A DNA stretch of 64,000 nucleotides from Bacteroidota bacterium (GTDB lineage: Bacteria > Bacteroidota > Bacteroidia > Flavobacteriales_D > Crocinitomicaceae): assembly GCA_030148165.1 (NCBI GenBank), contig JASBTZ010000003.1:124001-188000 (forward strand). Direction: 5' to 3'. Made by a program: the position numbers and the translations under genes. The notes under the pieces were generated by a model. It ran no database searches and was not told the DNA's origin. It saw only the letters and a list, made by a program, of their open reading frames with translations. Positions 384 to 57,366 of this stretch are shown here, in pieces; the first letter of the stretch is position 1, and every line of letters begins with the position of its first letter.

Positions 384-390
384 TAATTGG

Positions 391-417
391 TAAATAATAC
401 CATGGTAGTTAATTTAG
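391..417 (+). promoter_or_regulatory. Candidate promoter and operator of marR (TACCATGGTA palindrome)
   Basis: A perfect 10-bp palindrome TACCATGGTA (398-407) lies between the mannosidase gene and marR. It is followed after 2 bases by TAATTTAG (410-417), one base away from the Bacteroidota -7 element TAnnTTTG, just before the ATG at 422. Flanking TAAAT and ATTTA extend the symmetry. The same 10-mer occurs at 56879-56888 in front of a lipoprotein gene. MarR proteins usually bind such palindromes and repress their own operon; that this is the site is inference. Confidence 0.45.
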
Positions 418-421
418 CGCC

Positions 422-865
422 ATGAAAATCGATGATGCAATTAATTCAAAGTTTACTTCTCCCAAGATGAGGGCCGTTGTAAATGTCAGATACACATCCA
501 ATTATATGGCGGCGATCCAGAATCGCTTTATGAGCAAGTTTGATCTGACAATGCCCCAATTCAATATTTTGCGAATCCTTCGAGGAGCTAATGATACACT
601 AGCTGTAAATACGGTTAAGGAGCGAATGGTTGAGAAATCACCGAACACGACAAGATTGATGGATAAGCTTATCGATAAAGGCCTGATATCAAGAGAAAGA
701 TGTGAGAATGACAGAAGAGTAGTGTATGTGAAGATTACGAAGGAAGGCTTGAAGCTGCTTACTAAAATTGATAAAGCTTTGGAGAAGGAGGAGATTTTCA
801 AAGTTAATCTGACCGATAAAGAAGCACAGCAACTGAGTGATCTTCTGGATAAATTGAGAGATTAA
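422..865 (+). CDS. MarR-family transcriptional regulator
   Basis: A 147-residue winged-helix regulator of normal MarR length. The core runs from about residue 35 to 118: a helix with MPQFNILRILRG, the recognition helix region EKSPNTTRLMDKLIDKGL, and a wing with ENDRRVVYVKITKEG that carries the family's D-R-R signature. N- and C-terminal helices would form the dimer interface. Its stop TAA shares a base with the ATG of the outer-membrane protein gene at 865 (TAATG), so the two are translationally coupled, and the regulator probably controls that receptor. A perfect palindrome (398-407) upstream is a candidate autoregulatory site. The ligand cannot be told from the sequence. Confidence 0.9.
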   Translation: MKIDDAINSKFTSPKMRAVVNVRYTSNYMAAIQNRFMSKFDLTMPQFNILRILRGANDTLAVNTVKERMVEKSPNTTRLMDKLIDKGLISRERCENDRRVVYVKITKEGLKLLTKIDKALEKEEIFKVNLTDKEAQQLSDLLDKLRD

Positions 866-3285
866 TGAGAGCGGCATTTTCTGTCTTATTTATCACGCTT
901 TCCTTTATTGGGTATGGCCAATCAATATCCGGTAAAATTCTTGATGCGGATGGAAAAACCATCGAGTACGCAACGGTACGCCTATTTAAAGATAGTGATA
1001 GCACAGTAGCAAGTGGAGCCGTTACGGATTCAACCGGTAACTTTTTAGTGACTGAATTCGAATCGGGTGATTACTACTTAAAGATAACCTTTGCTGGACA
1101 TGAGCCTATGTTCTATGATCTCAAGCCGATCGGTGAAGATGAGGACCTAACACTTGACCCCATTCAACTTGTGCTGGATAAGACCCTAGAGCTTGAAGGA
1201 GTAGTTGCCGTTGGTTCATTGGATGTCCTGAAAGCAGGAATCGATAAAAAGATCTACAACACATCCGAAGATATTTCTGTTAGAGGGGGAAGTGTGGAAG
1301 ACGTATTGAATAACATTCCCTCTATTGAAGTTGACCAGGACGGAAATATTAGTTTGAGAGGAGATGGTAATGTGACTATTCTAATCGACGGCAGACCAAG
1401 CGCTTTGGCGATGGGTAATGGTCAGAATCTGCTTGACGTAATACCGGCTAACTCCATTGAACGTATTGAAGTCGTGACGAATCCATCTGCACGCTATGAT
1501 CCCGATGGTACTTCCGGCATCATTAACATCGTCCTCAAAAAGAACAAGGTAAAAGGGTCGAGTGGACTTATTTCTGCTACTGGAGCCACCGGAAATCTAT
1601 ACGAGGCGAATCTGGCATATGCGTATCGGGCGAATAAGGTCAATGTCTTTGGTAATTACTCATTTAATTACAGAGATGGTTATCGAAACCGATACAGTGA
1701 CATTGAAAAGGATATCACAGAGGATAGCGTCACCAATTTTATTCAGGAACGGGAAGGTACAGACCATAGAATGGGCAATACGGTTGTTTTAGGAATGGAT
1801 TATTACTTCAATGACCGAAATACCATATCCTTCTCAGGAACAGGTTCATTGGGAGACCGTATCCGGACGGGAGATCTGGAAAGCACCTTGTATACGGATG
1901 ACACCACAACGGTTATCGATAAATGGAACCGAATATCGGAAGACCCTCGACAAAGAAAGAACATGGATGCCAACTTAAATTTTAAAAGAGTCTTTAATGA
2001 AGATATGGGTGAATGGTCAATTAACCTTAATCAGTCCATTGGGTCAAGTGACATAAAAGGGTTCTACACACAACGCTATCTTGATTCGAATGGCGAAAGT
2101 CTGCCAATAGCAGATCTGGAACAAAGGTTAGCAAATGACGAATACCGTCAAATCACCACCGCTCAATCTGATTTCAGTTATGTCTTTGAGAAAATCCGGG
2201 GTAGAATGGAAGCCGGTGTTAAAACAATTCAGTCATACGAGTCTCTAAATACAGTATCTGAAACAAGGGATACACTGTCGGGAGAATACATAGAAGACAC
2301 TCTCGCTAATTACGAGTATAGCTATACGGCTTCCGTTACAAGTGGATATTTAATTTTTGGACAAGAACGTAAGAAGTTTAAGTATCAGGTAGGTCTCCGG
2401 CCAGAGTATGCTACTCAGGAACCCAATCTGATTAGTGAAGGATTAGAACAGCATTTGTATTACTTCAATATTTTTCCTTCAGCTCATATCAAATACGATT
2501 TTAGCGATGTCTCAGAAGCGAGTATCAGTTACAGTAGAAGGATCAATCGTCCAAGTTCAAGAGAATTGAATCCATTTACAAGTTATGCGGATCCCTTCAA
2601 TTTACACGCGGGTAATCCATTTTTAGAGCCAGAATACATTGATTCCTATGATTTGGGGTATTCATTCACCAAGAAGAAATTCATTATGACCTTGAGTGTT
2701 TTTTACCGAAACACCACAAATGTCATTAATAGGGTTCGCGTTTATTATGATAACAATGTCTCCAAACTTACTTGGGGAAACATTGATAGAAGTGAAAGCA
2801 CGGGCTTCGAGGGTGTGTTTATCGTAAAGCCGGTTGATTGGTTCAAAAGCACAATTTCGATCAATGGAAACTTCCAGAATTACTACGATGATAGTCCGGG
2901 CAACGACTGGAACAACAGCGGTGTCAATTGGGGAGCAAAGGCAATTACAAGTATTGATTTTTGGAAAAAGACCTCTTCATTTCAGATCAATTATCGATAT
3001 ACCGCTCCATGGGTTACTCCACAGGGAAAGGTTCAACGCAGACCTGGACTGGACCTTTCACTTGAAAGGAGATTGATGGATAAGAAGCTTTCGCTGGTCT
3101 TTAAAGTAACTGATGTGTTTAATCGAAAAGGTTTTACCGTGTGGTTGGATAGGGAAGGTGTGAGCCAGTATCAGGAGTTCAAATGGTTAACCCGCAGATT
3201 TTATCTTACCGTCTCCTATAAGTTCGGTAACCTGGATAAGAAACTGAAAATTCCTACCGAAGGTGAAGGTGGTGGAGGTGATTAA
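865..3285 (+). CDS. TonB-dependent receptor-like outer-membrane beta-barrel protein
   Basis: 806 residues. A signal peptide (about 1-18, ending GYGQS) is followed by a carboxypeptidase-D regulatory-like beta-sandwich (about 19-100: SGKILDADGKTIEYATV), a plug domain (about 125-225, with SLRGDGNVTILIDGRPS and IERIEVVTNPSARYDPDGTS) and a long barrel of the OMP_b-brl_3 type. The barrel contains INRPSSRELNPF and GNPFLEPEYIDSYDLGY, typical of this family. The protein ends in a glycine-rich GEGGGGD tail, which is common in the family. No TonB box or SusD partner is evident. Such proteins resemble TonB-dependent transporters, but for many the substrate is unknown. It overlaps marR by one base and probably responds to the same signal. 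Confidence 0.9.
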   Translation: MRAAFSVLFITLSFIGYGQSISGKILDADGKTIEYATVRLFKDSDSTVASGAVTDSTGNFLVTEFESGDYYLKITFAGHEPMFYDLKPIGEDEDLTLDPIQLVLDKTLELEGVVAVGSLDVLKAGIDKKIYNTSEDISVRGGSVEDVLNNIPSIEVDQDGNISLRGDGNVTILIDGRPSALAMGNGQNLLDVIPANSIERIEVVTNPSARYDPDGTSGIINIVLKKNKVKGSSGLISATGATGNLYEANLAYAYRANKVNVFGNYSFNYRDGYRNRYSDIEKDITEDSVTNFIQEREGTDHRMGNTVVLGMDYYFNDRNTISFSGTGSLGDRIRTGDLESTLYTDDTTTVIDKWNRISEDPRQRKNMDANLNFKRVFNEDMGEWSINLNQSIGSSDIKGFYTQRYLDSNGESLPIADLEQRLANDEYRQITTAQSDFSYVFEKIRGRMEAGVKTIQSYESLNTVSETRDTLSGEYIEDTLANYEYSYTASVTSGYLIFGQERKKFKYQVGLRPEYATQEPNLISEGLEQHLYYFNIFPSAHIKYDFSDVSEASISYSRRINRPSSRELNPFTSYADPFNLHAGNPFLEPEYIDSYDLGYSFTKKKFIMTLSVFYRNTTNVINRVRVYYDNNVSKLTWGNIDRSESTGFEGVFIVKPVDWFKSTISINGNFQNYYDDSPGNDWNNSGVNWGAKAITSIDFWKKTSSFQINYRYTAPWVTPQGKVQRRPGLDLSLERRLMDKKLSLVFKVTDVFNRKGFTVWLDREGVSQYQEFKWLTRRFYLTVSYKFGNLDKKLKIPTEGEGGGGD

Positions 3286-26965: not shown

Positions 26966-28684
26966 TCATGCCGAAATGTTGGCTAATTCCTCCTGAACAA
27001 AAGCAGCTAGATTCTTGATGTGATTCTCATCGAAGCTAAACTCAATCTTTGCTGTTTGATAGATGTCGGGTATGCTTTTGGTATATGCCAGTCTGAGGGC
27101 ACGTTTATAGTTTTGAATTGCCTCATCGAAGTTCTGAAGGCTGTTTTTCCACACACTAAGGGCACCAAGCTGGGCAATTCCATATTCAATATAATAGAAG
27201 GGAACTTCAAATATATGAAGTTGTCTTTGCCACGCAGAATCACGTATGTCTTCATATCCGCTCCAGTCGACCAGGCCTGTTCCATATTCCTGTGATAGAG
27301 TTAACCACTTTTGACTACGTTCTTCATTGGTGTGTTCCGGGTTTTCATAAAGCCAATGCTGGAACTCATCCACCTGACTGATCCAAGGTAATATTTTAAT
27401 AATACCTTCCAGCTGCTCGCGTTTCGCCCTGTTTAACTCAGAATCATCAGCGTAGAACTCATTCCACTGATCCATGCTGAGTAATTCCATTGACATGGAT
27501 GCCAGCTCGGCAACCTCTGAAGGCAGGCTTTTAAATCCGGTTAACGGAAGATCCCGACTCAGGAACGAGTGTATTGCATGACCTCCTTCGTGCACCATGG
27601 TAACGAGGTCTCTTTGAGAGCCAACAGCATTCATGAATATGAAGGGAACTCCGATCTCGTACAGCGGATAATTGTACCCTCCGGGCGCTTTGCCTTCTTT
27701 TGATTCTAAATCCAGATGATTCAGGTCGTTCATGGTTTTCAGACAATCTTCAAAGTATGGATCAATTGAACTGAACATGCGTATTGTTTTGTACAACAGC
27801 TCATTACCATCCGTGAAAGGTTTTAACGGTGCCCGTCCCTCAGGATCCACATCCAGATCCCATGGTTTGAATTTATCCTTACCAAGCTTTTCGAGTTTTT
27901 TAAGCTGAATTTCCTTGACCATCGGGACAATGATCTTTTTGACCGATGCATGGAAGGTTTTACAGTCGTCAACCGAATAATCGAAGCGGCCCATAGCGTC
28001 CATTTTGTAATCTCTGAAATTCGCGTAACCGGCATTTTGTGCTATCTGGTGACGTAGCTTAAGTAAGTTGTTGAACAGCTCGTCAAACTTATCAAAGTCT
28101 TCGCGTCGGCGATTTGAGATCTTTTCAAAAATCAGCTTGCGCAGTTCTTCGTCTTGCTCTTTTAATAGGAGGGAGGCCTGCTGCATCGTTAGGGTTTTTC
28201 CTTCATGTTCGATCGTCTGAGCGGCTGATAAAGCGCCAAACTCTTGTGTTTGTTCAGAGACCTTAGCCTGTAAAGGGATGTTTTCTTCGCGGAATAATTC
28301 AAGCGCTTTACGCACAGATCGAAACATGATGAAATAAGCTTCATCATCCTTTTCCAGCTCTCTGCAAAAAGGAGAGCCGATTAGTTTCTTATTGATCCGA
28401 TCCTCGTAAGGCGCAAGATTAGGCTGGATCTCAGTCACAAAGAAGCGGTAATCTTCACTTAACTTTTCGTCCCGTGTATTGATGGTCATCTTGATATATC
28501 TCCAAGCGAGATCTTCTTCCAGAATCGCCTTTAATTCACTCGTGTCGTTCAGCCATTTGATGAATGATTCCTTTGTGCTAATATCCCGCTCTTCCAGATC
28601 GTCAAAATACTTCTTAATTGCATCCCATGAATCAATCTTCAGATCCGATGCAACAAATGTTCGTTTTGGTTTTACTATTTCCAT
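26966..28684 (-). CDS. pepF: M3 family oligoendopeptidase (PepF-like)
   Basis: 572 residues, the usual length. The zinc site is VHEGGHAIHSF with His365, Glu366 and His369 as HExxH. A third glutamate ligand is likely in the SEVAELAS region (near 390-393). The N-terminal part is the helical oligopeptidase F lobe. The enzyme cleaves short peptides in the cytoplasm, since no signal peptide is present. The ATG at 28682-28684 lies only a few bases past the T run of the DUF5606 terminator, so there is no room for its own promoter in that gap (see findings). Confidence 0.9.
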   Translation of the reverse strand: MEIVKPKRTFVASDLKIDSWDAIKKYFDDLEERDISTKESFIKWLNDTSELKAILEEDLAWRYIKMTINTRDEKLSEDYRFFVTEIQPNLAPYEDRINKKLIGSPFCRELEKDDEAYFIMFRSVRKALELFREENIPLQAKVSEQTQEFGALSAAQTIEHEGKTLTMQQASLLLKEQDEELRKLIFEKISNRRREDFDKFDELFNNLLKLRHQIAQNAGYANFRDYKMDAMGRFDYSVDDCKTFHASVKKIIVPMVKEIQLKKLEKLGKDKFKPWDLDVDPEGRAPLKPFTDGNELLYKTIRMFSSIDPYFEDCLKTMNDLNHLDLESKEGKAPGGYNYPLYEIGVPFIFMNAVGSQRDLVTMVHEGGHAIHSFLSRDLPLTGFKSLPSEVAELASMSMELLSMDQWNEFYADDSELNRAKREQLEGIIKILPWISQVDEFQHWLYENPEHTNEERSQKWLTLSQEYGTGLVDWSGYEDIRDSAWQRQLHIFEVPFYYIEYGIAQLGALSVWKNSLQNFDEAIQNYKRALRLAYTKSIPDIYQTAKIEFSFDENHIKNLAAFVQEELANISA

Positions 28685-56878: not shown

Positions 56879-56909
56879 TACCATGGTATCTACATATGCT
56901 ATAATTTAG
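56879..56909 (+). promoter_or_regulatory. Candidate promoter/operator with TACCATGGTA palindrome
   Basis: TACCATGGTA (56879-56888) matches exactly the palindrome at 398-407. TAATTTAG (56902-56909) follows 13 bases later, against 2 bases at the marR promoter, a difference of 11 bases or about one helical turn. Both have TAATTTAG as putative -7 element. Confidence 0.45.
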
Positions 56910-56928: not shown

Positions 56929-57366
56929 ATGAAAAAAGTATTGATACTAGCGCTCATCATTGCAACAACAGGGGCGTGTAAAAAATTTAATGACGGAGGA
57001 CTTGTAAATCGAGCAGAAAAGAACCTTACAAGACAGACGTGGAAGTTGGAACAATATCTTAGAAACGGAAATGACGAGACAAGTGAGTTGCTAATTTCAA
57101 ATTATGAAGAAACGTACGCAGAAGGAGGACAGTTAACGCGCACGTACATTTATAACGGACAAGCTAATACGGAAGTTGGATCCTGGCAACTCAAGAAAGA
57201 TACGAAGCAAATCAAGGTTGACGGCGTGAGTAGTTTAGAGCTAACGCCGCAGACGAGTACGGTGTCCACATCAGATATTGAAGTGCTAAGACTTAAGAAG
57301 AAAGAGTTTTGGTACTATTTTGACAATGGCAGCGATCGTCATGAATTTCACTTCATTCCAAAATAG
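56929..57366 (+). CDS. Hypothetical lipoprotein (145 aa)
   Basis: Lipobox TTGAC-like GACKK: Cys near residue 17 after LILALIIATTGAC. The mature part resembles a lipocalin-like domain: KNLTRQTWKLEQYLRNGNDETSEL and ANTEVGSWQLKKDTKQIKVDG. The promoter carries the same palindrome as the marR gene at the start of the window, so it may be under that regulator. It converges on the YqgE gene with 3 bases between. Confidence 0.7.
   Translation: MKKVLILALIIATTGACKKFNDGGLVNRAEKNLTRQTWKLEQYLRNGNDETSELLISNYEETYAEGGQLTRTYIYNGQANTEVGSWQLKKDTKQIKVDGVSSLELTPQTSTVSTSDIEVLRLKKKEFWYYFDNGSDRHEFHFIPK

Follow-up and report, generated by a model that had tools for sequence, protein, structure and literature searches.

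Two genes lying far apart in a 64,000-nucleotide stretch of a Crocinitomicaceae genome (Bacteroidota; the whole stretch analysed is hereafter called the window), one for a MarR-family regulator and the other for a lipoprotein, are preceded by the same palindromic 10-mer, TACCATGGTA, which raises the question of whether the regulator controls both genes or the sequence is shared by chance. A preliminary description had favoured control by MarR, placing the copies at 398-407 and 56879-56888 and seeing no third, and a search of the window returned exactly these two, together with one single-mismatch copy at 27593. When one mismatch was tolerated, at least the three matches seen in the window were reached in 18 of 100 shuffles. 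The chance expectation of 0.06 that had been put forward holds for one preselected 10-mer but not for the appearance of any palindrome in two copies. Of 69 distinct palindromic 10-mers in the window, 7 have two copies, which makes the probability argument weak. Although that argument is weak, the link to the MarR protein survives genome-scale tests, and the palindrome is very probably, as judged from sequence comparison, bound by a self-regulating repressor of the MarR type, which also marks scattered detoxification genes in these aquatic bacteria.

The marR promoter and its conservation

The marR product contains a winged-helix MarR domain (PF01047, 46.2 bits against a cut-off of 24.6). In an alignment of 64 rows, column 94, in the wing, is the only conserved cysteine column, with cysteine in 61 rows overall, comprising 50 of 50 rows of the operator group (five of them duplicates) and 11 of 14 others. 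The beta-barrel gene that follows (Table 1) is probably co-transcribed with marR, and a homologue of it was found in many of the relatives' marR loci. In some relatives an OsmC-like gene, absent in the window, stands between marR and the barrel gene (L072:3444-3818); an OsmC gene comes after marR in L073 too, as judged by its sequence similarity to L072. On the 5' side of marR, a frame at 12-383 matches the Ig-fold domain of mannosidases just above the cut-off and is perhaps a glycoside hydrolase end.

Table 1. Features of the two palindrome-bearing loci (window coordinates).
Feature	Position	Strand	Remarks
TTGG, -33-like element (marR promoter)	387..390	+	Precedes the -7-like box by 19 bases
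Operator TACCATGGTA in marR promoter, spacer between -33 and -7	398..407	.	Putative; TACCNNGGTA conserved in relatives
-7-like box TAATTTAG	410..417	+	Position agrees with TAnnTTTG of relatives
MarR-family regulator, 147 aa	422..865	+	Pfam MarR; Cys94 in wing
Outer-membrane beta-barrel protein (OMP_b-brl_3)	865..3285	+	Start overlaps marR stop by 1 base
Second exact operator copy TACCATGGTA	56879..56888	.	Putative; 41 bases before lipoprotein start
-7-like box TAATTTAG	56902..56909	+	13 bases past the palindrome
Lipoprotein, 145 aa, lipocalin-like	56929..57366	+	Lipocalin_4 E 0.011; structure model

The form TACCNNGGTA was found 5' of marR at 18 of 18 same-genus loci (the present one included) and at 32 of the 34 loci taken from named genomes, which include Crocinitomicaceae, Fluviicola, Taishania and Brumimicrobium; the two sets share five contigs, giving 45 of 47 distinct relatives with the site, for the most part in the -33/-7 spacer. 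At the -33 place TTNG is present at 15 of the 18 loci of the genus and at 29 of the 34 named ones, and the full succession of site, 2-base gap, TANNTT box, four bases and start codon at 13 of 18 and 29 of 34, respectively. At L103 and L104, the two named loci where TACCNNGGTA is missing, marR lies close behind another gene, and in the L103 protein the wing cysteine is replaced by aspartate. Under the title Glaciecola amylolytica, a record name that is probably wrong, a complete genome (L086) holds a close marR relative together with the operator of this group, and in a locus titled Chitinophagales (L101) a second TACCGTGGTA occurs directly 3' of marR.

It had also been pointed out that TAATTTAG begins 2 bases past the palindrome at marR and 13 bases past it at the lipoprotein gene, which proved accurate. 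As a part of the operator this repeat is ruled out, relatives carrying TAnnTTTG, the -7 box, in the same place; it is best read as a -7 promoter box outside the operator, the gaps of 2 and 13 bases representing two operator arrangements, one in the spacer of the marR promoter and the other that of a target promoter. In Flavobacterium johnsoniae the -7 box is given as -12 to -5 in the available text of PMC6847099. With a box of this span, transcription should begin at the start codon in these marR loci; the predicted start for marR is 422, the A of ATG, and its transcript appears to be leaderless. Leaderless mRNAs make up 5.5% in F. psychrophilum, according to the available text of PMC9723704.

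Elsewhere in the order, twelve relatives of other families (two of the loci being incomplete) had no TACCNNGGTA in the marR promoter, and in several of these other-family relatives (L049, L051-L055) TGTANNTACA replaces it at the same place, which suggests a switch of operator between families. A search for TGTANNTACA gave 20 places in 8 genomes. In a plus-strand scan of 13 of these 20 loci, 4 places precede marR and the others match no reference protein, while the places in L260 and L261 adjoin marR by coordinates. The longer form ATGTANNTACAT has 4 places and misses the marR sites, which overlap the -7 box.

Location of the sites in the genome and among relatives

The genome-wide search for the palindrome, proposed earlier as a check, was run on the 3.5-Mb genome and gave six exact copies of TACCATGGTA, four of them just 5' of genes and two intragenic, in gyrase A (recognised from its sequence) and in a 514-residue secreted protein. 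Neither form is abundant in relation to its reversed control, with 6 exact copies against 8 for TACCATGGTA, which is thus not enriched overall, and 40 against 66 for TACCNNGGTA. It is the location of the copies, not their number, that chance fails to explain. By our own ORF calls, 32 of the 40 TACCNNGGTA copies lie within ORFs and 8 are intergenic, and all eight of the latter are at most 60 bases from a gene start, where about one (0.9) was expected. When promoter position is defined as lying wholly within the 70 non-coding bases 5' of a gene, a fraction estimated from rough ORFs at 2.9% of the window, the positional excess has P 1.7e-5 for 8 of 40 TACCNNGGTA and P about 1e-5 for 4 of 6 TACCATGGTA (one estimate used 31, not 32, coding sites). 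One of the 32 ORF sites, which overlaps an ORF end and is followed after 26 bases by a glyoxalase-family gene, might be a further case.

The four genes with an exact upstream TACCATGGTA are marR, the window lipoprotein gene and the genes for a 4,5-DOPA-type dioxygenase and a YceI lipoprotein; the four further ones with TACCNNGGTA encode a pirin, a YceI protein, an FMN reductase and, at 495 residues, a protein whose C-terminal end is a YceI domain, so that, the window lipoprotein aside, the list consists of marR, three YceI genes, pirin, FMN reductase and dioxygenase. The genome has four MarR-family genes above cut-off, and no TACCNNGGTA was found in the 3.1 kb around each of the other three.

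Among relatives, the YceI lipoprotein gene carries the site at 21 of 28 loci, or in 21 of 24 genomes when the best copy of each is taken, the three misses being a one-base departure (G018) and two genomes without the MarR (G001 and G040). For the dioxygenase the count is 5 of 7, with misses in G019, where MarR was not detected, and G004, where it is present. Promoter-linked sites, defined as TACCNNGGTA followed by TANNTTTG within 20 bases, numbered 113 in 34 genomes, the reversed pattern used as control giving 40. They were concentrated in genomes with the MarR (99 in 23 genomes, versus 14 in the 11 without; Mann-Whitney P 0.0003, and P 0.003 in the 23 genomes at least 90% complete), while the reversed control split 32 versus 8 (P 0.10). 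Three genomes have 3, 4 and 5 promoter-linked sites with MarR undetected (G009, G005 and G019, which are 76, 86 and 93% complete), exceptions that would reflect either incomplete assemblies or another regulator. In G007 MarR is present and the single promoter-linked hit is located in an ORF. The genome studied here itself gave only 3 such hits against 2 for the control, because the -7 box of its marR promoter departs from the consensus.

Reading of 82 site rows assigned 18 to a membrane-YceI gene, 12 to pirin (two distant pirins), 9 to an MFS transporter, 6 each to marR and FMN reductase and 3 to the YceI lipoprotein. The remaining 28 had no recognised target, several being intragenic, and included single cases before genes for a nitroreductase, a MATE exporter, a metallo-lactamase/rhodanese protein and a PF06491 protein. 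Within the genus the most frequent target is a protein of about 480-500 residues with a C-terminal YceI domain (L118:1-1486, minus strand; 18 site rows, L175-L255), whose N-terminal part gave no Pfam match. In 38 of 48 target promoters of relatives the operator ends 8-12 bases before the -7 box, a gap that places it over or beside the -33 position. Where marR has TACCTAGGTA, a middle TA is found in 8 of 16 other regulon sites, and elsewhere in 0 of 54 (permutation P 0.0016), in a hand-compiled set that is confounded by genome relatedness and excludes L242 and L244, where a TA site lies at an unclassified gene of a non-TA genome.

As for the window lipoprotein, its Lipocalin_4 match is below the cut-off, and its structure model is of low confidence (mean pLDDT 61.6), the 50 listed PDB matches being mostly lipocalins with TM about 0.4-0.5 and none with E <0.001. 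YceI proteins are likewise termed lipocalins in the available text of PMC5350466. The earlier proposal that MarR controls both genes is strongly supported for its own promoter, where binding is predicted from the conserved site; equally strong support exists for predicted binding at a scattered regulon beyond the reach of the earlier description. For the lipoprotein gene it is plausible only, the site being exact and well placed yet present at just one of 13 homologue loci, its own. It was absent at the other 12, including that of the closest homologue (46% identical, G041), although both the MarR and 7 promoter-linked sites are found in that genome. By chance, an exact site in such an upstream position would be expected roughly 0.1 times per genome (scaled from the 0.9 for TACCNNGGTA). 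The lipoprotein probably belongs to the MarR regulon as a member that is not conserved, and we consider it rather unlikely that this copy, taken alone, is fortuitous.

Proposed regulon and rival readings

In the best explanation, which we hold to be likely, the MarR protein encoded at 422-865 would use TACCNNGGTA as its operator and, as an autorepressor, control a detoxification regulon. A MarR dimer bound in the -33/-7 spacer of its own promoter would block RNA polymerase, resulting in self-repression of marR, and the same operator placed before a -7 box would lead to repression of the scattered detoxification genes. These would encode YceI lipocalin-family proteins, pirin, an NADPH-dependent FMN reductase and a 4,5-DOPA-type ring-cleaving dioxygenase, joined in relatives by an MFS transporter. 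A reactive aromatic compound, a quinone or an oxidant would release MarR from the operator, the signal being sensed, perhaps, through the single conserved wing cysteine, Cys94; given the target families and the conservation of this residue, a redox or electrophile signal is the natural guess.

The weight of this explanation depends on how well others account for the same data. That the palindromic 10-mer stands at its two window positions by coincidence, with no relation between the copies, agrees with the repetition of 7 of 69 such 10-mers in the window, with the missing genome-wide enrichment (6 versus 8) and with the poor conservation of the lipoprotein site, but it accounts neither for the marR site being kept in 45 of 47 distinct relatives nor for four of the six genome copies lying 5' of genes (P about 1e-5). 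Site position and conservation lead us to reject chance as the whole explanation, and we regard this reading of the pair as very improbable. Binding by another regulator, one with marR too under its control, would explain why the three genomes mentioned above (G005, G009 and G019) have sites with MarR undetected. This is improbable in view of the fixed place of the site in the marR promoter of most relatives, of the co-occurrence of sites with MarR and the covariation of their middle dinucleotide with the marR site, and of the other three MarR genes of the genome, which are above cut-off and have no site nearby.

MarR might also bind and activate its targets, with the operator replacing the -33 element. 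The target operator is usually over the -33 position, and TTG at -33 spacing is mostly absent from target promoters and kept in marR promoters; such an absence is ordinary here, though, as TTG at 18-21 bases occurs in only 1 of 28 operator-less promoters, which weakens the case for activation made from the missing -33 element. MarR proteins are mostly repressors, and both operator placements, in the spacer and over or beside -33, would hinder the polymerase, which favours repression; we give activation little credence. Binding by MarR, repression rather than activation, and the nature of inducer and sensor are what we infer from these observations.

In a wider formulation, offered tentatively and with some doubt, the sites could define a detoxification regulon of one lineage of Bacteroidota, in which a single MarR would sense electrophiles or oxidants via a cysteine in its DNA-contacting wing and govern lipocalin-fold scavengers (YceI and the lipocalin-like lipoprotein) along with pirin, ring-cleaving dioxygenase, FMN reductase and export, itself being expressed from a leaderless promoter with the operator in the spacer. 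Two matching 10-mers have in this way led to a testable regulon in a little-studied lineage, one that would give YceI lipocalins, whose role the available text of PMC5350466 terms unclear, and pirins a shared regulatory setting and that points to the detoxification of reactive aromatics or quinones.

Comparison with known regulators

Among the titles listed as matches in the literature search, which covered a minority of subscription papers, we found no MarR with a YceI and/or pirin regulon and no autoregulated flavobacterial MarR of such kind, and those listed for the 10-mer itself looked unrelated. Enterobacterial MarR and SlyA resemble the present protein in fold family, in autoregulation (predicted here) and in having a transporter among the targets (here, the putative ones of relatives), with equivalog scores of 44.7 bits against a cut-off of 240 for MarR and 42.6 against 120 for SlyA. 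The peroxide-sensing OhrR repressors belong to the same family, and some relatives (L072) have an OsmC gene after marR; the score was 47.3 bits against a cut-off of 200, the matched model being Vibrio-type. In OhrR the sensing cysteine is near the N-terminus, whereas the only conserved cysteine here is residue 94, in the wing. The best-scoring NCBIfam model was that of HpaR, the regulator of homoprotocatechuate degradation (TIGR02337, 55.2 bits against a cut-off of 121.2), and no homoprotocatechuate degradation operon was found beside marR. By profile, the protein is a member of the MarR family that falls outside the HpaR, OhrR, MarR and SlyA equivalogs.

The quinone-sensing MarR-type repressors MhqR and QsrR of Staphylococcus, as presented in the available text of PMC12893000, are alike in fold family and, as far as the operator and targets predicted here go, in having a palindromic operator and detoxification targets that include ring-cleaving dioxygenases and reductases. 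In the system described here a LigB-family dioxygenase and an FMN_red protein have sites, their role with quinones being putative. The MhqR operator given in that text, TATCTCGAA-ATCGAAATA, is not the TACCNNGGTA conserved at marR here, and the two systems differ in their targets, the core here being YceI, pirin and FMN reductase.
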